Shown here: positions 1,555 to 60,708 of the stretch, piece after piece
How positions within the stretch are numbered: the stretch's first letter is position 1
How the letters are laid out: the number at the start of each line of letters is the position of its first letter
DNA from: Elusimicrobia bacterium GWA2_51_34
GTDB lineage: Bacteria; Elusimicrobiota; Elusimicrobia; Elusimicrobiales; UBA9959
Direction of reading: 5' to 3'
Length of the DNA: 64,000 bases
Assembly (NCBI GenBank): GCA_001799565.1
Contig: MGTS01000021.1
Span: 95,984 to 159,983, forward strand
Translations under genes and position numbers: made by a program
Notes under the pieces: generated by a model
The model's input: the letters and a program-made list of their open reading frames with translations, nothing else
Database searches by the model: none
Told to the model about the DNA's origin: nothing

Positions 1555-1867
1555 CAATGTTTAACCGCTGGGAGCCTGTCCGACATAAGGCTTTCATAGC
1601 GTCCGCCTCAGGCGGATGATGCCGGGTGGATCGAAGCGACACAATTCAGGCAATCAGGCCGAAGCGACGCGAAACGAGCATTCTGGACAGGACTGTGCGT
1701 TGGCCGTCTGATGAGCATAGCTCTTGATACGGCACTGGCATAGCCTTGAGCGGCGCAAAGGCGCAGGCCAAAAGCGGCAATTGCAGCCGAAATTACTTAT
1801 GTCGGCCAGGCTCGCAGAGCCCGCCTGGCCGGGCGGATTTGTTACAATACCCGGGAAAGGAATAAGA

Positions 1868-2773
1868 ATGACGGAAGAAATAAGCGGTCTTTTTTCGGTG
1901 CTGGCGGCGGAAGAAAGGCTGCCGGATTTTGCCCTTACGGCCAGAATACTTTCAGAATTCAACTCCCTGAACTCTGATGACGCCGGACGGCTGGCCAGGC
2001 ATTGCTGGGGTTTTATGGGTTCAAACCTGGCGCCCGGCAGCGCGCGTGAACTGGCCTGTAAATGCGAAGCTTACGGCGTTAAAACAATAATCCTGCCTTC
2101 AGCCGGATTAGCCGGACTTAAACCCGCGGCCTTTATAAAAAAAGCGGCTTTTGTAAACGACACCTTAAACTACACCGACGGCACGGGCCTTAGCATGAAC
2201 GCGTCAGCCGCGGATGTGCTGGTTTTATCCGCGGCGCCCCTCAAAGAAGATACGGTTAAAATTGTGAAGTCGGTTGAGGGGCCCTCCGCAGGAGCGAAAG
2301 CGCTGCGGTTGGGCATAATGGCCGCAACCGGCCTGCCCATCGGCCTGGGCAAAAACAAGGAAGTAAAAAAAGAGGTGAGAACTTCGGAGACCGCCTTCAC
2401 CCTGGATATAATTTTAAAACAGGCCGACAACTGTCCCGCCCTTTTGGCCCCAGAACGGAAGAGCTGGAAGCCGGACATAAACCTAAAGCCCGGGTTGGCG
2501 AACCAAAAGGGCGGGACCCGCCTGCGCCTGAACCCGGCGGCTTTTGATTTTTCCTGCCTGAAAGAGAAAAAAACATATTCCAGCCAGATGAACTTCTGCC
2601 TGATATGCGCCGCACTCTCCTCATTCGCCCATAAGGCGCTTAAAAACACCGGCCTTTGGGCCATACTTGAGCATAAGTCCCTTGCCGCCCTGCCTTACGA
2701 CGGGATGGAAGATTTTGAAAAAGAAACTTCGCGTTTAAATACGCTGGCTCCGCTCTTTTTTCAGCGCCCTTGA
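1868..2773 (+). CDS. Uncharacterised 301-residue protein
   Basis: I do not recognise this protein. The ATG at 1868 is preceded by an AGGAATAAG-like ribosome site; upstream codons of the frame look like spacer. It is soluble, without signal peptide or membrane segment. Several Cys are present but no clear metal motif. An 85-nt P1 palindrome (2433-2517) lies in frame in the coding region, adding roughly 28 residues, and the last codons plus stop lie in the degenerate left arm of a 52-nt P1 copy (2747-2798). It precedes arfB on the same strand by about 50 bases. The C-terminus may therefore have been remodelled by repeat insertion. Confidence 0.7.
   Translation: MTEEISGLFSVLAAEERLPDFALTARILSEFNSLNSDDAGRLARHCWGFMGSNLAPGSARELACKCEAYGVKTIILPSAGLAGLKPAAFIKKAAFVNDTLNYTDGTGLSMNASAADVLVLSAAPLKEDTVKIVKSVEGPSAGAKALRLGIMAATGLPIGLGKNKEVKKEVRTSETAFTLDIILKQADNCPALLAPERKSWKPDINLKPGLANQKGGTRLRLNPAAFDFSCLKEKKTYSSQMNFCLICAALSSFAHKALKNTGLWAILEHKSLAALPYDGMEDFEKETSRLNTLAPLFFQRP
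2433..2517. repeat. P1 palindromic element, 85-nt form, inside a coding region
   Basis: Inverted ends GTCCCGCCCTTTTGG and CCAAAAGGGCGGGAC bound an 85-nt segment lying wholly inside the uncharacterised gene at 1868-2773 without breaking its frame. Another segment of exactly 85 nt with nearly the same ends is found at 49579-49663, also inside a gene. The interiors are only loosely alike. Confidence 0.75.
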
Positions 2774-23185: not shown

Positions 23186-23276
23186 GGTTACCGGTTACCG
23201 GTTACTGGTTACTGGTTACTGGTTACTGGTTACTGGTTACTGGTTACTGGTTACTGGTTACTGGTTACCGGTCACT
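23186..23276. repeat. Tandem heptamer array, 13 units of GGTTACT/GGTTACC
   Basis: Thirteen contiguous 7-bp units, mostly GGTTACT, the outer ones GGTTACC and the last GGTCACT. It directly abuts and slightly overlaps the 3' end of the hydrolase gene. No spacer sequences are present, so it is not a CRISPR array. The rest of 22985-23185 holds no supported gene. Confidence 0.95.
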
Positions 23277-24101
23277 GAGCGCCGCTTCGGCCTTCACTTT
23301 CCACTTCATACCCGCTGTCTCTTCCATCAAAGTCGCTCCTGCTCCGGAGAACATATTCACCCCGTGCCCTGAAACGCCCTGCCGGAAAGTGATTTTTCCG
23401 CCATCGTCGGACCCCCCGGGCTCTTTGGCGGGAAGCTTTTGGGCATTGGCCGCCTCAAAAAGACGCAGGGAACTTTGCCAGGCGTAAGAATCGTCAGGAG
23501 AGGCAGCCAAAAGCAGAGCGAAAGGCAGCGAACGATGAAAATACTCCTCAATGCCTACGCCTGCGTAAACAAGCCCCGGAGAAAGCATTATTACCGCGGC
23601 CGGCTTAAGTGAATAGTCAACCGCCGCTTTTAAAACCAGATTCGCCCCCACGCTGGCTCCGCAAAGCACGATATTTGAGGCCGGAATCTTTCTTTTTTTC
23701 AGCCAGGAAACAGCGGCTACAATGTCTTTGGCGGCCGCGTTCCAGTCCCCCGCGCCAAAAGTCCTGTAATCCGTTTTTTTACCCGCGCACTCAAGGCTTT
23801 GGCCGTGTCCCCGCAGGTCAAGCGTCAGCCAGCCCAAACCCCGCGTCTTAAGCAGTTTTTCAAACGGGCCCCATTCGCCTTTACCCGATCCCAAGCCGTG
23901 AACATTTATAAAAACAGGGTTCCCTTTGGCGGGCGCCCCGTAAGAGGCCGCTATAAGGCATCCGTCCGCGGTTTTCAAAAGGATATTCTCAGTCGCGGAC
24001 AACGCCAGAGGCCCGCGTCCGCCTGAGGCGGACAGTGTCTCCGCCGCGCTCAAAAATCCGAACGGAAGAAGGAGTAAAATATGGAAAATTATTATTTTCA
24101 T
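23265..24101 (-). CDS. Exported alpha/beta hydrolase
   Basis: 278 residues with a signal peptide (MKIIIFHILLLLPFGFLSAA). Fold landmarks: INVHGLGSGKGEW (oxyanion region), LDLRGHGQS and the nucleophile elbow CGASVGAN; the late GHGVNMF is the probable catalytic His. The substrate cannot be predicted. Residues about 21-37, right after the signal peptide, are encoded by a 50-nt P2 element read in antisense (SASGGRGPLALSAT). The last codons and the stop lie in the heptamer array. The ATG at 24101 is chosen because it starts the signal peptide. Confidence 0.85.
   Translation of the reverse strand: MKIIIFHILLLLPFGFLSAAETLSASGGRGPLALSATENILLKTADGCLIAASYGAPAKGNPVFINVHGLGSGKGEWGPFEKLLKTRGLGWLTLDLRGHGQSLECAGKKTDYRTFGAGDWNAAAKDIVAAVSWLKKRKIPASNIVLCGASVGANLVLKAAVDYSLKPAAVIMLSPGLVYAGVGIEEYFHRSLPFALLLAASPDDSYAWQSSLRLFEAANAQKLPAKEPGGSDDGGKITFRQGVSGHGVNMFSGAGATLMEETAGMKWKVKAEAALSDR
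23992..24041 (+). repeat. P2 element (50 nt) in the hydrolase gene, antisense to it
   Basis: This segment matches 30361-30410 at 47 of 50 positions. It contains the palindrome GTCCGCCTGAGGCGGAC. It sits in frame just after the signal-peptide codons. Confidence 0.9.
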
Positions 24102-24148
24102 AATACCCCCGTAAGGATTATCTTTCCCGGACCGGAAAAACCGCATGC

Positions 24149-29892: not shown

Positions 29893-30801
29893 ATGAAGAA
29901 GATTTTTTTTGTGCTCCTTCTGGCAGCCGCGGCGCCGGCAGCGGCGCTGGAACTTTCGCTTGAGGAGAACAAGGGCGAGTCCGGCACCATCGGTTATGTT
30001 GATATAGACCGGGTTTTCAAAGAATTTTCCGGCACCTCAAATGCCCGGGATGAATTTTTGGCCGAGATAAAGGCGAAGGAAGATTCCCTGAACCTTAAAA
30101 AACAGGCTATTTTTTCGCTTAAAGCCGACATCGCTAAATTAAAACAGGAGCGCGAATTCGCCCTTACCTTACCGGGCCTGATGCGCCAGGCCGAGGAAAT
30201 ATCCGCCGCGGCGGCCGCCAGTGTCGCTAGCGTAAGCGCTGGGTCGCCGCTTTCAACCGGTGCGGTTAAGGCGGACATCCCGGCCGGCATTTCCACGCAA
30301 ACCGCCGCCATTCAACCTTCAACAGGACCGGCACTGATGAATCCTTCTGCCAGTGTCTCAGTCGCGGACAGCGCCAGTGGCCCGCGTCCGCCTAAGGCGG
30401 ACAGTGTCTCAAGCGGAGCGTCCGCGGCGCTGCCGTCCGGCCTGCCGGGCATGGCAGGCATTGACATGCCGGGGATAAGCCGCGTGCCGGCCAGTTACTT
30501 CAAATTTTCCGTTTCCACCTCAGCAGCCGAAATTGACTCGGCCATAGCCGCAAAAGAAACGGACCTCGCGAAAAAGCAGGAAGCTCTGCGCCTGGCCCAA
30601 CGCCAGGCCGAGCGGGAGCTGCTGGAATATGAAACCGGGAAAAGCGAGATGATACTCGGCAGGATTTACATTGCCCTTAAAGAACTTGCCGTTAAAGAAG
30701 GCGTAAGCGTGGTAGTGGACAAACGAACCATCCTGTTCGGCCACGCGGCCGTTGACCTGACCGGCAAGCTGATCAAGAACCTTGAGGAAAGCCCGATATG
30801 A
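29893..30801 (+). CDS. OmpH/Skp-family periplasmic chaperone with a large low-complexity insertion
   Basis: 302 residues, against about 160-180 for usual Skp/OmpH. Signal peptide MKKIFFVLLLAAAAPAAA; then GYVDIDRVFKEFSG, the family's opening motif, and a coiled-coil arm (residues about 45-95). A Ser/Ala/Pro-rich stretch (about 95-205) interrupts the chain, including a 50-nt P2 element at residues 157-173. The second coiled coil (about 210-255) and the closing VSVVVDKRTILFGHAAVDLT follow. It would carry nascent outer-membrane proteins to BamA. Its stop overlaps the lpxD start (ATGA). Confidence 0.87.
   Translation: MKKIFFVLLLAAAAPAAALELSLEENKGESGTIGYVDIDRVFKEFSGTSNARDEFLAEIKAKEDSLNLKKQAIFSLKADIAKLKQEREFALTLPGLMRQAEEISAAAAASVASVSAGSPLSTGAVKADIPAGISTQTAAIQPSTGPALMNPSASVSVADSASGPRPPKADSVSSGASAALPSGLPGMAGIDMPGISRVPASYFKFSVSTSAAEIDSAIAAKETDLAKKQEALRLAQRQAERELLEYETGKSEMILGRIYIALKELAVKEGVSVVVDKRTILFGHAAVDLTGKLIKNLEESPI
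30361..30410 (+). repeat. P2 element (50 nt) inside ompH
   Basis: Encodes VADSASGPRPPKADSV in the gene's frame. Contains the palindrome GTCCGCCTAAGGCGGAC. A perfect 10-bp direct repeat CAGTGTCTCA lies at 30351-30360 and again at 30402-30411, at the edges of the element. Related copies: 23992-24041 (47/50) and 47611-47660 (45/50). Confidence 0.92.
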
Positions 30802-47096: not shown

Positions 47097-47726
47097 TTAG
47101 GGGAGACCCTTGAAGGTGCGGGCTACGCGTTCAAACACCGGCAGATGCTTTGAAAAGACCGCTTTGGGCGCCGAGAAGTGGAAAACGAAGAATCCGTCTT
47201 TAGCCGGCAGAACATAAAATTTTTCCTTGAGCATTACACTCTCATCCGACTTGCTCTCGGGGTGCAGATATTCTTTCTTCTCCCTTTCAAACTCAAAAGC
47301 CTTGCGTTTCCCCAGGGCAGTAGTCTTCACCTGCCCGTATATATCGGTTTCAGGGGCAATGCCCAGGTCGTCAGTGGAATTGCTGTCCACATAATCCTTA
47401 TAATCCCTAAAATATTTATTGGTTTTGGAGAAATAGGACACATAAGCCGTCACGGGAACCTTTTGAGCGTTAGGGCCCGTAAGTTCTATCTGGAATACGC
47501 CGCTCTTCTGCTCTTTGTCCGCGTCGCGGCTTAACTGCCATTTTTGCGGAACTTCGCAGGAAAAATAACCGTCCAAAGAGAACGCTTTGAACTCTTTCGT
47601 CTGGGCGGTTGTGACACTGTCCGCCTTAGGCGGACGCGGGCCTCTGGCGTCATCCGCGACTGTGGCCGGTTTTGCGGCCCAAAGAGGACCTCCGGTCATG
47701 AACATAATAAGGATAAGCCTTAACAT
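47097..47726 (-). CDS. Exported protein of unknown function with in-frame P2 element
   Basis: 209 residues. Signal peptide MLRLILIMFMTGGPLWA, then VADDARGPRPPKADSV (residues about 23-38), the translated P2 element, then a globular domain starting FSLDGYFSCEVPQKWQLSRD. The pattern of a single beta-rich domain with a late FVFHFSAPKAVF recalls PsbP/DUF1795-like proteins, only weakly. Third gene of the C11 protease operon; eight bases after its upstream neighbour. The ATG at 47726 is chosen for the signal peptide. Confidence 0.75.
   Translation of the reverse strand: MLRLILIMFMTGGPLWAAKPATVADDARGPRPPKADSVTTAQTKEFKAFSLDGYFSCEVPQKWQLSRDADKEQKSGVFQIELTGPNAQKVPVTAYVSYFSKTNKYFRDYKDYVDSNSTDDLGIAPETDIYGQVKTTALGKRKAFEFEREKKEYLHPESKSDESVMLKEKFYVLPAKDGFFVFHFSAPKAVFSKHLPVFERVARTFKGLP
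47611..47660 (-). repeat. P2 element (50 nt) in an exported protein gene
   Basis: On the minus strand it matches the ompH copy at 45 of 50 positions and is read in the same frame (VAD...GPRPPKADSV). It lies right after the signal-peptide codons. Confidence 0.92.
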
Positions 47727-47734
47727 ATAGTCCT

Positions 47735-49696
47735 CTACAGCGCGGGCACTTTGCTCTTCGGGCCCGCCGCGGCTGTTTTCACCGCCTGCCGCATGGAACC
47801 GGTCCAATCCCCGGCGTTCTGGTAATAGTCGCCATAGAAATTACCGCGCAGGAGGTCCTCCTGGATCTTTTGAAGGGCGGCGGTCTGTATCTCGCCCACC
47901 GAACCGGACAACTCCTGCGTGGTCATGGCTTTAGCCTCATCGGTTCCTATGCCGGTTTTCTCTATTTCAGCCAGGTCCGCGGGCAACAGGCCGCTCCTTC
48001 TGTTCAGTTCGCCCGATACCGCAGACACTACCTGGGACGAAGCCGCTACAAAGGAAGGCAAACCCGGATAGTAGACCTGACGCACCCTGCTGTCAAATTC
48101 GTTGGTGTTGCTGCTGAAAGCGGAGGCGAGCGCCAGCCTCTTAGCCGCGTAACTGCTGGAAGAGGTGCGCATTCTTGTCATCATGCTTTTGAATTTGGGA
48201 TCGTTTTTAAGCTTCTCCATGGTATACAGCGCCTCCATGGCATTGGCTTCAACTTCATCCTCCTGCACGTATGGTTTATAAACCCGGGCCCTGTCAGCCC
48301 AGGCGTGCTGCATCTGATGCGTACCCTCGTGCGCCAGCATGGGGGAAAGATATTTGCTTAAGCTTGAAACCTGCTCCCGGCTGCCCAACAGGGTATTTGC
48401 GGTAAGATTATTGACACGCATGTACTGCTGTATAAGTTCGGAGTCTAATATCATCCTGCCGGAGGACGACTCGTATTTGGCGTAGCAGCCCTGACAGGAC
48501 TCAATAGCCACATTAAGCTTTGCCCCGGCAGCGTAAAACTTAGCCAACTTGTCGCCCGCCACGGTCCCCCTGACTTCCGCGATCATCGCGGAACCGAGCA
48601 TAGAGGCCAGCATCTGGTTGTTCAGCGGCGACAGGGTCTCGCCGGGCTGTGACTGCCGTAAGCTGTCTATCTTTCTCTCCGCCGCCACAGCCCCCCTGAT
48701 CTCACTCTTATCAAAGGCCCTGCCCAGCAGATAAAGCTGCTGCTCTATGGGCTGGTCCTTAAGTTTCGCCAGCTGGCCGGGGCTGAACTCCGGCCTGGCG
48801 ATTTCCACAGCGGCCATCTGGGCGATATATTTTTTCAGGCGGCCATAGCCCGGGCCGTCAAGGTAACTCAGAAGCTCGCGGAGCGCAACAGCCGCGTAGG
48901 CGGAGTCGCTGCCGGAGGGACTGCCGATAAGCCCATCAAGCAGCTGGCCCGCTTTGAGATTCATGTAGTTATTCCGTTCTCTCAGCGTCAGTGTAGCCCA
49001 AAACGCCTTCATGTCGGCTTCACTATTCTTGAAAACAACCTCGCCGTCAACAATCTGCATAAAGCGGCTGCCGGTGGAATCAGTTACCTCCCAAGCCGCC
49101 AGAGCGCCGTATCTGTACCTGGGGGAAAAAGTCAAGCCGGCGAATATCGCGTCCCAGTTTCTGACCGATCTTTTAAGCAGCGCGGTCTTAGCGGCGCCGT
49201 AGTTTTTATATTCAGCGGCCCAGGCCAGCGTCTTCTCCGGCTCCGGGGCAAGGCCTACCTTGGCGAGCGGCGACTGGTCCGTAAGACGCAAAGCCATGGC
49301 TTCACTCAGGTTCCGCTCCTGGGAAGCTGGCCAATTCCTGTCAAGCAGACTGCCATATTCTACCACGGCCTCCGCTTTTGACCTTAAATCGGCGGCTTTA
49401 ACGGGGTCGGAAACAGCTAGTTTATCCAGCAGGGCGAAGTCCTTAAGGTAACTGTCGGCGGCCGCCAGGTCGGCGGAACTTATCCGCGCTTCATAATTCT
49501 GAAGCCTGAAGGCTTCATCCGCGGCCTGCTCCTGGGCGCACAGGCCATAAACGCTCAAGCCCGCGGCCAGCGCGGCAAGCCCCGCCCTTTTGGCCCAACA
49601 GCCGGAGCCGATGCCCGAAACGCGGGTTATTAAGCGGCCCACCCTGTTCCAAAAGAGCGGGGCAAGATAAGTTGTTTTCAGCGTTTTCCAGTTCAT
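47735..49696 (-). CDS. Exported protein with HEXXH metallopeptidase motif, unknown family
   Basis: 653 residues. A hydrophobic signal core (LAALAAGLSVYGLC) lies unusually far in, at residues 40-53, because a P1 palindrome (residues about 12-39) is inserted between the N-terminal MNWKTLKTTYL and the core. MLAHEGTHQMQHAW near residue 455 is an HEXXH zinc site, with EDEVEANAMEAL about 25 residues later supplying a third ligand. The long helical N-terminal part is not recognised. Second gene of the operon, eight bases after the C11 protease gene. It could be activated by that protease (inference). Confidence 0.78.
   Translation of the reverse strand: MNWKTLKTTYLAPLFWNRVGRLITRVSGIGSGCWAKRAGLAALAAGLSVYGLCAQEQAADEAFRLQNYEARISSADLAAADSYLKDFALLDKLAVSDPVKAADLRSKAEAVVEYGSLLDRNWPASQERNLSEAMALRLTDQSPLAKVGLAPEPEKTLAWAAEYKNYGAAKTALLKRSVRNWDAIFAGLTFSPRYRYGALAAWEVTDSTGSRFMQIVDGEVVFKNSEADMKAFWATLTLRERNNYMNLKAGQLLDGLIGSPSGSDSAYAAVALRELLSYLDGPGYGRLKKYIAQMAAVEIARPEFSPGQLAKLKDQPIEQQLYLLGRAFDKSEIRGAVAAERKIDSLRQSQPGETLSPLNNQMLASMLGSAMIAEVRGTVAGDKLAKFYAAGAKLNVAIESCQGCYAKYESSSGRMILDSELIQQYMRVNNLTANTLLGSREQVSSLSKYLSPMLAHEGTHQMQHAWADRARVYKPYVQEDEVEANAMEALYTMEKLKNDPKFKSMMTRMRTSSSSYAAKRLALASAFSSNTNEFDSRVRQVYYPGLPSFVAASSQVVSAVSGELNRRSGLLPADLAEIEKTGIGTDEAKAMTTQELSGSVGEIQTAALQKIQEDLLRGNFYGDYYQNAGDWTGSMRQAVKTAAAGPKSKVPAL
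49579..49663 (-). repeat. P1 palindromic element, 85-nt form, inside a signal-peptide coding region
   Basis: Ends GCCCCGCCCTTTTGG and CCAAAAGAGCGGGGC. Same length as the 85-nt copy at 2433-2517. In the gene it encodes about 28 residues between the start and the hydrophobic core of the signal peptide. Confidence 0.8.
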
Positions 49697-53746: not shown

Positions 53747-55711
53747 ATGTCAAACGACAAATCCCGGAAAATTAAAAAAGTTATTTTTTTTAATCTTTGT
53801 CTGCTGGCGATTCTGGCCGGTTTATGGCAGTTTATTCCCGATTCCGTAAGAATACTGAACGAGAGTAGTCAGTTAGACGCCGGAGAGAACTGGATTTTTG
53901 CCTTAACCAAATATTTTTCTAACAGCTGGTTCCCTTTTTACCCGGTTGTTATGGCAGTCATCCAGTATCATACCCCCGCCTGGCTGCAGGTTGGCGCGGG
54001 CAAATTTGTCTTCCTGCTGCCTGTGATACTGGCTTTCTCCGCCGGCTCCCTGATACATTCATTTTCCGCCGGAATTATATCGGCCGCGCTGTCCGCGGTT
54101 CTTGGCGCACTCCTGTTTAGCGGAGGGATTCAGGGATTCCGAGAAGAACCTTACGATCATTATATTGAACAGGCTCTAATCGCCGCCGCGATGCTGATGC
54201 TTGTTTGCGGGCTTTCCATTAAATTCCGGTCTTATATATTAAAAAGTTTCTTTATCGGCCTGCTTTTGGCGGTGGCGCTGCATACGAAGGGAGTTATTGC
54301 GCTGTTCATACCCGTAGTTTTTGTGTACGAGACGTATCGGGAGCAAGGCCGGGCGCGTTTTTTAAGACAGTGGCCGGCAATGACCGTGCTCCTGACGGTC
54401 GTTTCGGCCTGGGTTATAGTTAACTGGGTTGGCCGGAACGGATTTGTACTTTTTGAAGGCCAGCGTGCCAACTGTGTCATCGTTCAGAGTGCGCTCGGTC
54501 TTGTCGCCTCTACGGGATATTTGGGGGACGACTGGCAGCTTGCCTTATCCGGAATTCACCCCGGGCAGAGTGTGTTCCTGTGGGCGGCCCGTGAAATACT
54601 GGCGCACCCGCTGCGGTATATTGCAGCGATCGGATACCGGTTGCATTGCATTTTGTTTAAACAACCGCTGGCGCCGGGATTGCCCGTGCTGTTTTTTTTA
54701 TGGCTCTGCGGCGTTTACCGGCTGAGGCGCCTGGCAGCCGCGCTGCCGCTGCTGCTGCTTACACTCTATCTGCTCCTGATACACCTTCTTATGCTACTGG
54801 ACGTACGATATTTAGTGCCGATGTGGTTTTTAGTCTGCACTCTGACGGGGATTTTTTTTGCGGATATGCTTGGCGGAACTCCGAAGCAGGGCGGATATGA
54901 GCACACAAACGCGAAAGCCGTGTTTTATGCCGCTTCCACGCCGGTAATTATTTTATGGGCGGTCAGCTTTATGCTGCTGATATCGTATCCCCTGCGAAGC
55001 AAAGCCGCGCACGATCTTGGAAAACTTGGGCAACTGGAAACAGAGTATCCCGGTGTCCCGTGGATACACGAAATGGCGGCCCGTGAGGCATTAAGGACCG
55101 GAGATTGGGACAGGGCCGTGGATTCACGCCGTAAGGCCTACGAGGTGGACAACTGCTTGTATCGCAAGCACTACTATTTAAAAACAGCGTTCATGACTGG
55201 CAGGATTTCCGGAGCTCAGCTCCAGGAACATTTCCGGAACGACTGGGAACATGAGCCGCTGATGCTGGCCGCTTTGCGCTACGGTGAAGAGGGGAAACTG
55301 GCAAAAGCCGGTAAAATCCTTCCGTGCGCATTGCAGTTGTGCGTCAGAAACTCAACCGATATGCACTTTGCAGACAGTAAAAATGTTGTGCTTTTAAAGA
55401 AAATGCAAAGGGACAGCGCTAAAAACTGCCTGAGTGTTCTTTCGGAAATGATTTCTACTCTCGATACCAAGAGGCGCGGCTTATTGCGGGACAGGCTTGC
55501 GCAAATTTATCCCGGCTTGTGGCGGCCGGAGCTTCTTTTTTCCGCTTTCGAGGCGGGAAGCGCAGAAGGCTATCCGGAGATTCAGGTCTGCCAGATTCAG
55601 GCCTGTCTGGGCGTAGTTCCTCTGGTGAATCCCGAGTCTGGCAGCCCCAGCCCGATAACTTGCAAAGGCTGCACAGGCTGTCATACGCTGCTGTCGGGAT
55701 CTTATCGCTAA
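53747..55711 (+). CDS. Polytopic membrane protein, probable GT-C type glycosyltransferase
   Basis: 654 residues. About ten membrane helices up to residue 420 and a soluble C-terminal part of about 230 residues. The first loop (LDAGENWIFALTKYF) and GFREEPYDHYIEQALIAA, containing acidic residues after the first and later helices, resemble ArnT/PMT-like GT-C enzymes that use polyprenyl-phosphate sugars; this is inferred from topology. The sequence ends oddly (TCKGCTGCHTLLSGSYR). Base and codon use look less GC-rich than in neighbours, so recent acquisition is possible. Confidence 0.6.
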   Translation: MSNDKSRKIKKVIFFNLCLLAILAGLWQFIPDSVRILNESSQLDAGENWIFALTKYFSNSWFPFYPVVMAVIQYHTPAWLQVGAGKFVFLLPVILAFSAGSLIHSFSAGIISAALSAVLGALLFSGGIQGFREEPYDHYIEQALIAAAMLMLVCGLSIKFRSYILKSFFIGLLLAVALHTKGVIALFIPVVFVYETYREQGRARFLRQWPAMTVLLTVVSAWVIVNWVGRNGFVLFEGQRANCVIVQSALGLVASTGYLGDDWQLALSGIHPGQSVFLWAAREILAHPLRYIAAIGYRLHCILFKQPLAPGLPVLFFLWLCGVYRLRRLAAALPLLLLTLYLLLIHLLMLLDVRYLVPMWFLVCTLTGIFFADMLGGTPKQGGYEHTNAKAVFYAASTPVIILWAVSFMLLISYPLRSKAAHDLGKLGQLETEYPGVPWIHEMAAREALRTGDWDRAVDSRRKAYEVDNCLYRKHYYLKTAFMTGRISGAQLQEHFRNDWEHEPLMLAALRYGEEGKLAKAGKILPCALQLCVRNSTDMHFADSKNVVLLKKMQRDSAKNCLSVLSEMISTLDTKRRGLLRDRLAQIYPGLWRPELLFSAFEAGSAEGYPEIQVCQIQACLGVVPLVNPESGSPSPITCKGCTGCHTLLSGSYR

Positions 55712-57300: not shown

Positions 57301-60300
57301 TTAAACGCTGAAATACACGGCTTTGGGGTTGTGAAAAACTATGGCGGATACCGAGGCCTCGGGGTCCATCATGAAACCTTCCGTAAGGCGAAGCCCCGCG
57401 TCAGCCTCGGGCTTCAGCAGATCAAAAAGTATTTTCTGGTTAGCCAGGTCAGGGCAGGCGGGGCAGCCGAAAGAATACCTCTTGCCCCTGTACTTGCTGC
57501 GCAGCGGCGGTCTGACCGGGCCCGCCCCGGCTATGCCCCAGGCCTGACGCAGCCGGTAATGCATAACCTCGGCGAAAGCCTCGGCAAGCGTTAGCGCCAG
57601 TGCCTCCGCCATATAGGACTTCACGTAATTGCCGGCCTCGCGTTCCCGCTTCGCGTAAGCAAGCACACCTTCCCCGCAGGTAACGGCAAAAAGCGCGGCG
57701 TAGTCCTTAACCCCGCCCGAAACCGGCGCCGCGAAATCAGCCAGACAAAGCCTGTCGCCCGCCGTCCGCCTTGGAAAAGCAAAAGAAGCCATCCGCGTTC
57801 CCGCCTTGTCGTAAAACAACAGATCGTCGCCGGAACTGTTCACGGGAAAAAACTGATAAACGCCCCTGGCTTTTATCAACCGGCTGCCTATTACCTCTTT
57901 CTTCATAGCGGCCAGAAGCCGGGCGGCTTCGGCTGCCTTTTCGGGCCGGGCTTTGTTCAATTTAAGGAAGCGCAGATTAAACAATCCTTCATCCAGATTC
58001 TCAAAAAGTTCTTCCAACGCCTGCTCACCGGTAAAATGCCGCTCCAGATCCGCTGGCACAGGAATATCGGCAGGGTAGTAGCCGAAGTTTGGAGTTGGGA
58101 GTTTGGAGTTTAGCTGGCCGCACGAAGATTCATTCTCCATCCTTGAACCCCGTACATCATGCGCCTTTTTCCCCAACTCTAAACTCTTAACTCCGATCTC
58201 TAACGCGTAATTAAGTCCGCTCATGGCGTCCTGGGCGTAAAATACCTTGCCCTTATAAACCGGCGCTATATTGTTTTCCGTATACTTCAAGGTTAAAGCG
58301 GCCCCCCCCGCAAGCAGAGGGCAGCTTACTCCGGCGGAGGATAGTTCGCGCGCGGTTACAGCCATCTGCTCGGTGGAGCGCACAAGCAGCCCGGAGAGCC
58401 CTATAAAGTCGGGCTTTTCCTTCAGCGCCGCTTCAACAATGGTTTCCGAGGACACCTTTACACCCAGGTCCACCACCTCAAAGCCGTTGGATTCAAAAAT
58501 GATATTTACCAGGTTTTTTCCGATGTCGTGAACATCGCCCTTAACGGTGGCAAGAAGCAATTTCCCGCGCTTGGGCGCTTTAGCCGCTTTCAGCGCGCCC
58601 TCCATTACAGCTACGGCTTTTTTGGTAACCTCGGCGCTTTGCAAAACCTCGGTAACTATAAGCTCGCCGGCCGCGAATTTTCTGCCTACTTCCCCCATGG
58701 CTTTCAGCACCGGGCCGTTTATTATTTCAAGCGGCCCGTATTTAAGAAGCAGTTTGTTTACAATTTCCTCCACGCCGTCTTTTGACCCGTCGTTTATTTT
58801 GGCCGCAAGAGCCTCTTCCGGCGGCATGGCGGAGGTTTTATCTTCAGTAAGAACTGTTTTTTTAACGTCCCTGAAATATTCGGCGAAAGCGGAGGCGGCG
58901 TCCGCTTTTCTAGCGAATATCAGATCTTCGGCCAGAGCTTTCTCATTTTGCGCCATGGAAGAGTATCTTTTAAGTTTCCCTATATTTACTATCGCCACGC
59001 CAAGCCCCGCGCGCGCCAGATGGTGAAGAAAAACCGAATTAAGTATTTCGCGGCCGGCCGGGGGCAAGCCGAATGAAACATTGCTCACACCGAGCGCGGT
59101 TTTTGTTTTAGGGAAACGCTTCCCTATTTCCGCCACGGCCTTTATGGTTTCTTCAGCCGTAGCGGCATACTCGGGGCCCACTCCCACCGGAAACACCAGC
59201 GGATCGAAAATTATGTCTTCTTCCGGCAGGCCGCAGACCCCGGTTAAAAACTTATAAGCGCGCTCCGCTATGGCGGTTTTGCGCTCCGCCGTACGGGCCA
59301 TGCCCTCCTGCTTATTCTCGTCTATACAGCCGAACACCAGTTTCGCGCCGTAGGTTTTACAAAGCTCCGCCGCCTGGCGGGGCTTATCTTCGCCGAATTC
59401 AAAATTCACCGAATTCAGTATTATCTTGCCGGGCGCGTATTTCAAAACTTCTTCCATAGCCTTAATATCGGTGGTATCTATCATAAGCGGCACACGCACC
59501 GCTTTCACCAGCATGGGAATAAAAGTTTTTATGTCTTCCAACTCGCTGCGTTCGGGGTTTGAAAGGCACACGTCCAGCACGTGCGCCCCGGCCTTAACCT
59601 GGGTTCTGGCCATTTCAACAGCTTCATCCCAGCGCCCGGCCGCGGCTATGTCGCGGAATTTTTTTGAGCCGATGGAATTATTCCGTTCGCCCGCCATCAC
59701 AGGCGGTTCCATGTCCTCATAATAAAGCGCCTCAACTCCGGACAAAGTCCACGGGCGGTCCCCTCGGCGCGCGCCCGGTTTAACGCCGTTAAGAGCCGCG
59801 CTTAAAGCCTTTATATGCCCCGGCAGCGTGCCGCAGCAGCCGCCCGCGATATTAAGCCAGCCCTTTTTTGCGAACTCGCACATTAAAGCGGCAAAATTTT
59901 CCGGCGTCTGGGTATAGCGGCCATTCTCGTCAGGCAGACCGGCATTGGGCATGCAGAATATGGGAAATGGCGACACTTTAGACAGCGCTTCCAGGCGCGT
60001 GCCCATATTTTTAGGGCCCGTACCGCAGTTAAAGCCCAAAGCTGAAAGCGGGAAATGGCTTAAAGCCGAATAAACAGCCTCGGCATTGTGGCCGGTCAGC
60101 ATGGAACCGAGTGAATCCATGGTGACAGAGGCTATAACCGGCACGCCGCCCGTGCCGCCGCCAAACGCCTGGCGCGCGGCGGCAAGCCCCGCTTTCAGAT
60201 TTATTATGTCATGGGCGGTTTCAAAAAGCAGGATATCCACCCCGGCATGAAGCAGAGCGTTCACCTGTTCAAGATAAAGCGAGCGCATCTGGTCAAAGGA

Positions 60301-60690
60301 CACGCCGCCGGTTACAAAAATGGATTTATTAGTCGGGCCTATTGAACCGGCCACAAGCCTGGGCTTGTCGGGGGTTGAGTATTTAGCGCACGCCGCTCTG
60401 GCAAGTTTAACGGCGGCGGAATTCAGCTCTTTTACTTTATCCGCCAACCCGTATTCAGCCAGCGCCGCGCTGTTTGCGCCGAAGGTGTTGGTTTCAATAA
60501 CATCGGCGCCGGATTTTAAATAATCTTCATGCACGCGGCTGACGGCCTCAGGTTTTGAAATTGAAAGGTATTCGTTCAGGCCCTCATACTTCAGGCTGCC
60601 GTAGTCCTCGGGTTTAAGGCCGAAAGTCTGCAGATAGGTGCCGGTGGCGCCGTCAAATATAATTACTTTCTTTTTAAGCAGGTTTCGCAT
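57301..60690 (-). CDS. metH: Cobalamin-dependent methionine synthase with an in-frame repeat insertion
   Basis: 1129 residues. Order: homocysteine domain (1-310; GFNCGTGPKN and GGCCGT give the zinc Cys), pterin domain (320-590), cobalamin cap and B12 domain (about 640-825; KGDVHDIGKNLV holds the lower-ligand His), and reactivation domain (about 885-1129; FGCPACPDLANQ). Methylates homocysteine from methyl-tetrahydrofolate. Residues about 829-869, between the B12 and reactivation domains, are encoded by a P4 word palindrome. ATG at 60690 has GAGGAG upstream. No cobalamin riboswitch is apparent. Confidence 0.96.
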   Translation of the reverse strand: MRNLLKKKVIIFDGATGTYLQTFGLKPEDYGSLKYEGLNEYLSISKPEAVSRVHEDYLKSGADVIETNTFGANSAALAEYGLADKVKELNSAAVKLARAACAKYSTPDKPRLVAGSIGPTNKSIFVTGGVSFDQMRSLYLEQVNALLHAGVDILLFETAHDIINLKAGLAAARQAFGGGTGGVPVIASVTMDSLGSMLTGHNAEAVYSALSHFPLSALGFNCGTGPKNMGTRLEALSKVSPFPIFCMPNAGLPDENGRYTQTPENFAALMCEFAKKGWLNIAGGCCGTLPGHIKALSAALNGVKPGARRGDRPWTLSGVEALYYEDMEPPVMAGERNNSIGSKKFRDIAAAGRWDEAVEMARTQVKAGAHVLDVCLSNPERSELEDIKTFIPMLVKAVRVPLMIDTTDIKAMEEVLKYAPGKIILNSVNFEFGEDKPRQAAELCKTYGAKLVFGCIDENKQEGMARTAERKTAIAERAYKFLTGVCGLPEEDIIFDPLVFPVGVGPEYAATAEETIKAVAEIGKRFPKTKTALGVSNVSFGLPPAGREILNSVFLHHLARAGLGVAIVNIGKLKRYSSMAQNEKALAEDLIFARKADAASAFAEYFRDVKKTVLTEDKTSAMPPEEALAAKINDGSKDGVEEIVNKLLLKYGPLEIINGPVLKAMGEVGRKFAAGELIVTEVLQSAEVTKKAVAVMEGALKAAKAPKRGKLLLATVKGDVHDIGKNLVNIIFESNGFEVVDLGVKVSSETIVEAALKEKPDFIGLSGLLVRSTEQMAVTARELSSAGVSCPLLAGGAALTLKYTENNIAPVYKGKVFYAQDAMSGLNYALEIGVKSLELGKKAHDVRGSRMENESSCGQLNSKLPTPNFGYYPADIPVPADLERHFTGEQALEELFENLDEGLFNLRFLKLNKARPEKAAEAARLLAAMKKEVIGSRLIKARGVYQFFPVNSSGDDLLFYDKAGTRMASFAFPRRTAGDRLCLADFAAPVSGGVKDYAALFAVTCGEGVLAYAKREREAGNYVKSYMAEALALTLAEAFAEVMHYRLRQAWGIAGAGPVRPPLRSKYRGKRYSFGCPACPDLANQKILFDLLKPEADAGLRLTEGFMMDPEASVSAIVFHNPKAVYFSV
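58084..58204. repeat. P4 word palindrome inside metH (AGTTTGGAGTT words)
   Basis: On the plus strand GAAGTTTGGAGTTGGGAGTT and following opposes CCCCAACTCTAAACTCTTAA and following. The 121-nt insertion keeps the metH frame open and falls exactly at a domain boundary. Confidence 0.85.
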
Positions 60691-60708
60691 AAGACTCCTC
60701 AACTGCTC

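Follow-up and report, generated by a model that had tools for sequence, protein, structure and literature searches.

A 42/51-bp palindromic element found in frame within conserved genes of Elusimicrobia genomes

Copies in the window and members of the family

We analyzed a stretch of 64,000 nucleotides (the window) from the genome of Elusimicrobia bacterium GWA2_51_34 (G000), a 2.63-Mb MAG in 43 contigs, together with those of its genus mates, G001 and G002. Three genes of the window, coding for OmpH, an alpha/beta hydrolase and an exported protein, each contained one copy of a 51-bp palindromic unit. These copies and related features are as follows:

30360..30410, + strand: copy 1 (51 bp, long unit), inside ompH (29893-30801), in an Ala/Ser/Thr-rich linker; read as VADSASGPRPPKADSVS
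23991..24041, + strand: copy 2 (51 bp, long unit), in the alpha/beta hydrolase gene (23265-24146, - strand), just past the signal peptide; antisense reading LSASGGRGPLALSATE
47611..47661, - strand: copy 3 (51 bp, long unit), in the exported-protein gene (47097-47807, - strand), past the signal peptide; read as VADDARGPRPPKADSV
30351..30360, + strand: CAGTGTCTCA preceding the copy in ompH; matches the 3' tail of the element itself
1722..1749, + strand: unoccupied target repeat GATACGGCAC^TGGCATAGCC; elsewhere the element lies at the same dinucleotide (G001:C78, G000:C41)
1870..1905, + strand: approximate position of an empty site directly behind the start codon of a gene near 1.86 kb; its orthologue in G002 (C13:163826) is longer by exactly 42 bp (14 codons, antisense frame)

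Against one 53-bp query, the three copies showed 53/53, 49/53 and 48/53 identity, whereas the best match to this query in 30 Markov shuffles of the window was 33/53. An earlier note on this DNA had described three near-identical segments, with the ompH and 47.6-kb gene copies in the same frame (VAD...GPRPPKADSV) and the hydrolase copy on the opposite strand, all of which was confirmed. The length that it gave, 50 nt, was one base short of the exact inserts of 51 bp each. The 10-bp CAGTGTCTCA pair that it saw bordering the ompH copy exists; however, it is the element's own 3' tail and is not evidence of a target duplication, because CAGTGTC(A/T)C sits between adjoining units of tandem arrays elsewhere. 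The CAGTGTCTCA before the ompH copy is best taken as left over from a preceding unit or as a tail-like target.

Insert-free orthologues were found for ompH, the 47.6-kb exported-protein gene and ten other genes, and wherever alignment permitted, the empty sites were exact for 42 or 51 bp. The ompH insert was absent in G001 and was not found in other family members examined, and the ompH linker of G002 contained two tandem 42-bp units. Both G001 and G002 orthologues of the 47.6-kb gene were shorter by exactly 17 codons. For the hydrolase copy, the motif was not found in the orthologues of G001, G002, G023 and G010, in which the N-terminal region is poorly alignable.

In metH (57301-60702, - strand), the B12-binding and activation domains are joined by a linker (58000-58160) whose inserts differ between species: G002 has two copies of the element there, and the window has other inverted-repeat-like sequence. 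The same palindromes are also abundant in the region of a 654-aa ORF with no Pfam match (53747-55711); on contig C17, the stretch that holds this ORF has three or more relatives at about 81% identity.

With up to two mismatches, the core pattern matched 51 times in G000, 16 times in G001 and 42 times in G002. Beyond the genus, three matches occurred in G015 and one each in G007, G019 (same family as G000) and G035, the last of which is probably due to chance; none was detected in 24 genomes of the order's other family at this threshold. Usable copies, at up to four mismatches, numbered 55 at 44 loci (G000), 17 at 16 loci (G001) and 39 at 35 loci (G002), and comprised 94 short (42 bp) and 17 long (51 bp) units; these counts rest on the core pattern at this threshold, searches and the surrounding stretches, and are lower bounds. 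Only strays were present outside the genus (G007, G015 and G019). The small palindrome GTCCGCCTNAGGCGGAC alone had 99 copies in G000, compared to one for a reversed control. The earlier note had named two outcomes that would speak against its reading: conservation of the segment in distant orthologues, and restriction to three genes through gene duplication. Neither was observed, as the segment was absent from orthologues in other genera and the copies in G000 were not limited to duplicated genes.

A scan of 84,980 GTDB species genomes with the core pattern gave hits in Elusimicrobia records, at seven loci of a single Streptomyces genome and, singly and scattered, in unrelated genomes, with no hit in Rickettsiales. 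The Streptomyces loci (L104, L105, L108, L109, L116, L121 and L126) all belong to Streptomyces sp. NBC_01446. No match was found for viral, phage or plasmid carriers of the element, and the openly available literature searched contained no prior description of such elements in Elusimicrobia. All of the evidence comes from MAG sequences, and movement is deduced from sequence comparison and not from direct observation.

Structure, ends and targets of the unit

The short unit is 42 bp long, AGTCGCGGACARCGCCANWGGCCCGCGACAGGCCAGTGTCAC. It folds into a 7-bp stem, a 5-nt bulge (ACAGC), a 3-bp stem and a 3-nt loop. The long unit of 51 bp, to which all three window copies belong, has a tail with TCCGCCTNAGGCGGA, which forms a second hairpin after the bulged one. 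Units start with AGTC and finish with GTGTC(A/T)C. Over 33 distinct copies, 95.2% of cells were paired, compared to 31-39% in slid controls. The amount of variation is underestimated here because copies were gathered by sequence pattern. Five of the ten stem pairs were changed on both sides (e.g., T-A to C-G, G-C to T-A), and none of 500 shuffles attained either hairpin value. Thus, the bulged hairpin is preserved through compensatory changes.

Many copies are located inside other multicopy repeats, so that occupied and unoccupied versions could be compared within the genus. When 42 bp were taken out, an unoccupied counterpart (no more than 4/28 mismatches) was present elsewhere for 26 of 50 isolated short copies; removal of any other length from 35 to 49 gave only 0-2 matches. 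Examples of empty/occupied sites include CAATCCTC^TGGAGG, GGCAC^TGCC, GAGCTC^CGCGAAGG and CCCCTC^AGYYGTTGGG. The first of these target repeats was unoccupied about 20 times in G000 and occupied at the same dinucleotide about seven times. The net insertion is exactly 42 or 51 bp, with no target duplication, which was ruled out by the scan of insert lengths at empty sites. At one locus (L013; TsaE, G000:C3:15341), GCCGG is present at both ends of the insert, unlike the repeat-target sites, and may represent a 5-bp duplication or chance.

The target motif is YWC^NG, with insertion between C and N: the left flank had C at -1 in 65/66 cases and T at -2 in 54/66, and on the right G occupied +2 in 51/66. 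Left flank and hairpin foot read YWC|AGTC or YWC|AGCC, and a GTAG tag before the hairpin was absent. Tandem copies are arranged head to tail, mostly at a spacing of 42 or 51, and the element's own head-to-tail junction, CAC^AG, agrees with the target motif, which accounts for arrays of this period. Targets were also somewhat more foldable than controls (joined-flank energy -11.8 vs -9.7, p = 1.4e-5). A guide code, in which element position 37 (T/A) is paired with target base -2, was considered and rejected, as no association of the expected kind was found.

TsaE of both genus mates was shorter by exactly 51 bp, and orthologues of ThrC (in G002) and RfbD (in G001 and G002) by exactly 42 bp. The BadF-type kinase and the M14 peptidase had 28 and 31 additional codons, respectively, relative to their orthologues, and other gene orthologues agreed within alignment limits. 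In QueA, RecN, YidC and CCA transferase, the insert combines the unit with other repeats.

Host genes and reading frames

At least 19 of the 44 G000 loci lie in frame within genes, on Pfam or orthologue evidence. The hosts were uS11 (as an N-terminal extension), M14 peptidase, BadF-type kinase, PpiC, QueA, a TPR protein, RecN, the hydrolase, OmpH, the exported protein, Wzy ligase, a LytR_C protein, ThrC, RfbD, TsaE, a hybrid histidine kinase, an OmpA protein, YidC and CCA transferase. A catalytic domain is interrupted in seven of them (QueA, RecN, ThrC, RfbD, TsaE, CCA transferase and BadF-type kinase); in alignments to solved TsaE, RfbD and QueA sequences, the insert appears as additional residues that separate conserved blocks. 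Some of the host genes code for essential enzymes. Hosts in G001 and G002 additionally included PlsX, MltA, MetH, KDO transferase and HypF. The earlier note had suggested that export linkers serve as favored safe sites. This did not hold beyond the window, because copies also occur within cytosolic TsaE, ThrC, RfbD, RecN, QueA and CCA transferase and in intergenic DNA.

The commonest frame in genes was s1 (VADSARGPRQASV). Other frames were s0 (QueA), s2 (ThrC and BadF-type kinase), a1 (TsaE, the hydrolase, a histidine kinase linker and PlsX) and a2 (MltA). With five frames in use genome-wide, the shared reading frame of two window copies is not a general property, and there is no conserved peptide motif. 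Four to five of the six frames of the unit are free of stops. Because the net change is +42 or +51 bp, an insertion always amounts to whole codons, adding 14 or 17 amino acids per unit and leaving the gene unbroken. The element occurs in frame in unrelated genes whose orthologues have no insert, as is characteristic of a coding-tolerant palindrome.

Several loci carried additional palindromes. In CCA transferase, the inserts of G000 and G002 lie at roughly the same position, but that of G002 is a different palindromic sequence (L074 vs L209), which suggests an insertion hot spot. The copy of the element in the G002 Wzy gene itself holds a 39-bp palindrome (CCCCGCACTTT...AAAGTGCGGGG), in frame. 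It belongs to a second palindrome family (CCGCACTTTGGCCCTNTCGGAAAAAGTGCGG), which inserts into the first element and numbers about eight copies in G000 (G000:C20:32055, G000:C42:148329, G002:C5:52529 and others).

Relation to known elements and possible mode of movement

In-frame palindromes are known from Rickettsia and Wolbachia, and inserts of the RPE-4 type occur in queA (PMC10969869, PMC3767692). The Elusimicrobiota element resembles these RPE/WPE in being a dispersed palindrome found between and inside genes, in frame and in unrelated conserved genes, with queA among the hosts in both. However, RPEs are about 100-150 bp long (some shorter) and are found in Rickettsiales, whereas the Elusimicrobiota unit is 42/51 bp long and unrelated in sequence; it is read in five frames, its target is resolved, and its ends are exact, without duplication. 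With no sequence relatedness and no hits in Rickettsiales, homology to the Rickettsia palindromic elements was rejected. The earlier note had proposed just such an unrelated, coding-tolerant family that enters genes in frame, and the dispersed copies and orthologues with no insert support it.

The element also shares short bulged hairpins, tandem/nested arrangement and some intragenic copies with REPs and REPtrons (GTAG-, CGTC-tagged; RAYT/TnpAREP); it is a short, dispersed, imperfect palindrome with conserved pairing, as REPs are. Intragenic REP copies have been described in Opitutus terrae, R. conorii and Thauera (PMC3733652), and the C^T and C^A junctions of the element recall TnpAREP cleavage at CT/CA (PMC8266576). 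It differs in its high genic share and in exact insertion of a 42-bp unit that includes the tail 3' of the hairpin. GTAG-type REP or REPtron membership was rejected since no GTAG was present 5' of the hairpin and no RAYT gene was flanked by the same repeat. MITEs are likewise small, non-autonomous and multicopy, but the unit has neither terminal inverted repeats at its ends nor a target duplication, and this class was rejected as well.

Insertion of IS200/IS605 elements produces no target duplication, and their movement favors the lagging-strand template. The Elusimicrobiota element, too, shows duplication-free insertion 3' of a fixed short sequence, and its last bases resemble the target, as in that family (PMC6006769). 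In contrast to IS200/IS605, there is no transposase inside the unit, and since only one base precedes the hairpin at the left end, there is no room for a guide tetranucleotide. Relative to GC skew in G002, where the skew is weak and power low, the copies showed no orientation bias (13 vs 16).

That the element is a mobile, coding-tolerant palindrome as such is very likely, and it is likely that it represents a non-autonomous mobile palindromic element, REP/RPE-like in working. The 42/51-bp unit inserts precisely at C^N of YWC^NG, often inside another palindromic repeat; a genic insertion adds a short, mostly hydrophilic peptide, which selection probably tolerates, and retained genic copies may be near-neutral. 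Movement would be catalyzed in trans, possibly by a Y1 (HUH) tyrosine transposase of the RAYT type acting on single-stranded DNA. Such an enzyme is the leading candidate for three reasons: single-stranded REP is cut by TnpAREP at CT (or CA) beside the REP hairpin, with a bulge required in E. coli (PMC8266576); IS200/IS605 elements insert beside a fixed short sequence via single-stranded intermediates (PMC6006769); and Y1 genes are present in each genome (six, six and four hits in the three genomes). We regard this step, taken alone, as tentative. A link by proximity was rejected, as none of the 16 Y1_Tnp loci examined in G000-G002 was flanked by the unit. The missing GTAG tag and, at low power, the lack of orientation bias also speak against a Y1 enzyme. 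Instead of the unit, several RAYT-like Y1 genes (L099, L100 and L237-L239) had AAAAGGTAGC...GCTACCTTTT-like palindromes at their borders, which are apparently REPs of their own.

The lack of the element at Y1 genes, the resemblance of targets to its own junction, the greater foldability of targets and the absence of strand bias, at the low power noted above, would also fit a REP-like element moved in trans by a non-Y1 enzyme, or spread via short-homology copying (template switching or gene conversion at hairpins). This explanation differs from the preferred one only in the driver and is a reasonable possibility, somewhat short of an even chance; for short-homology copying, exact constant ends at many unrelated sites are hard to obtain from imprecise template switching. 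A new mobilization type, with exact duplication-free insertion at YWC^NG, often into palindromes, a multiple-of-three length kept since it allows gene colonization and a driving enzyme encoded elsewhere in the genome, is conceivable, although less likely than not.

Sites common to G000 and G002 were found in uS11, PpiC and the Wzy ligase gene (G000:C21:183125, G002:C5:52529), and are older. They are what would be expected of old inherited insertions with no recent movement, whose similarity is upheld by gene conversion; however, most tested genic sites were empty in both genus mates and copies were near-identical, which makes this explanation improbable. A conserved functional peptide or linker domain (e.g., an export tag), shuffled between genes at the protein level, would agree with the location of all window copies in exported proteins and with the prevalence of the VADSARGPRQASV frame, but is highly improbable given five frames (s0, s1, s2, a1 and a2) in Pfam-supported genes, three antisense cases in G000 alone, intergenic copies and DNA pairing held by compensatory changes. 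Finally, although all genomes are MAGs, the same family with the same ends was present mid-contig, at different sites, in three separately assembled genomes, and an assembly or binning artefact can practically be dismissed.

Since protein-coding palindromes such as those of Rickettsia were described in 2000, the route by which they enter genes has, to our knowledge, not been settled. What is new here is the phylum, the small fixed unit, the ends and target defined at the base level and the depth of catalytic-domain invasion. With ends, target motif and dozens of empty/occupied pairs resolved to the base, the mechanism becomes directly testable. The phenomenon extends to another phylum and into catalytic domains of conserved enzymes (TsaE and CCA transferase), and these inserts provide a natural experiment in peptide insertion into folded domains.
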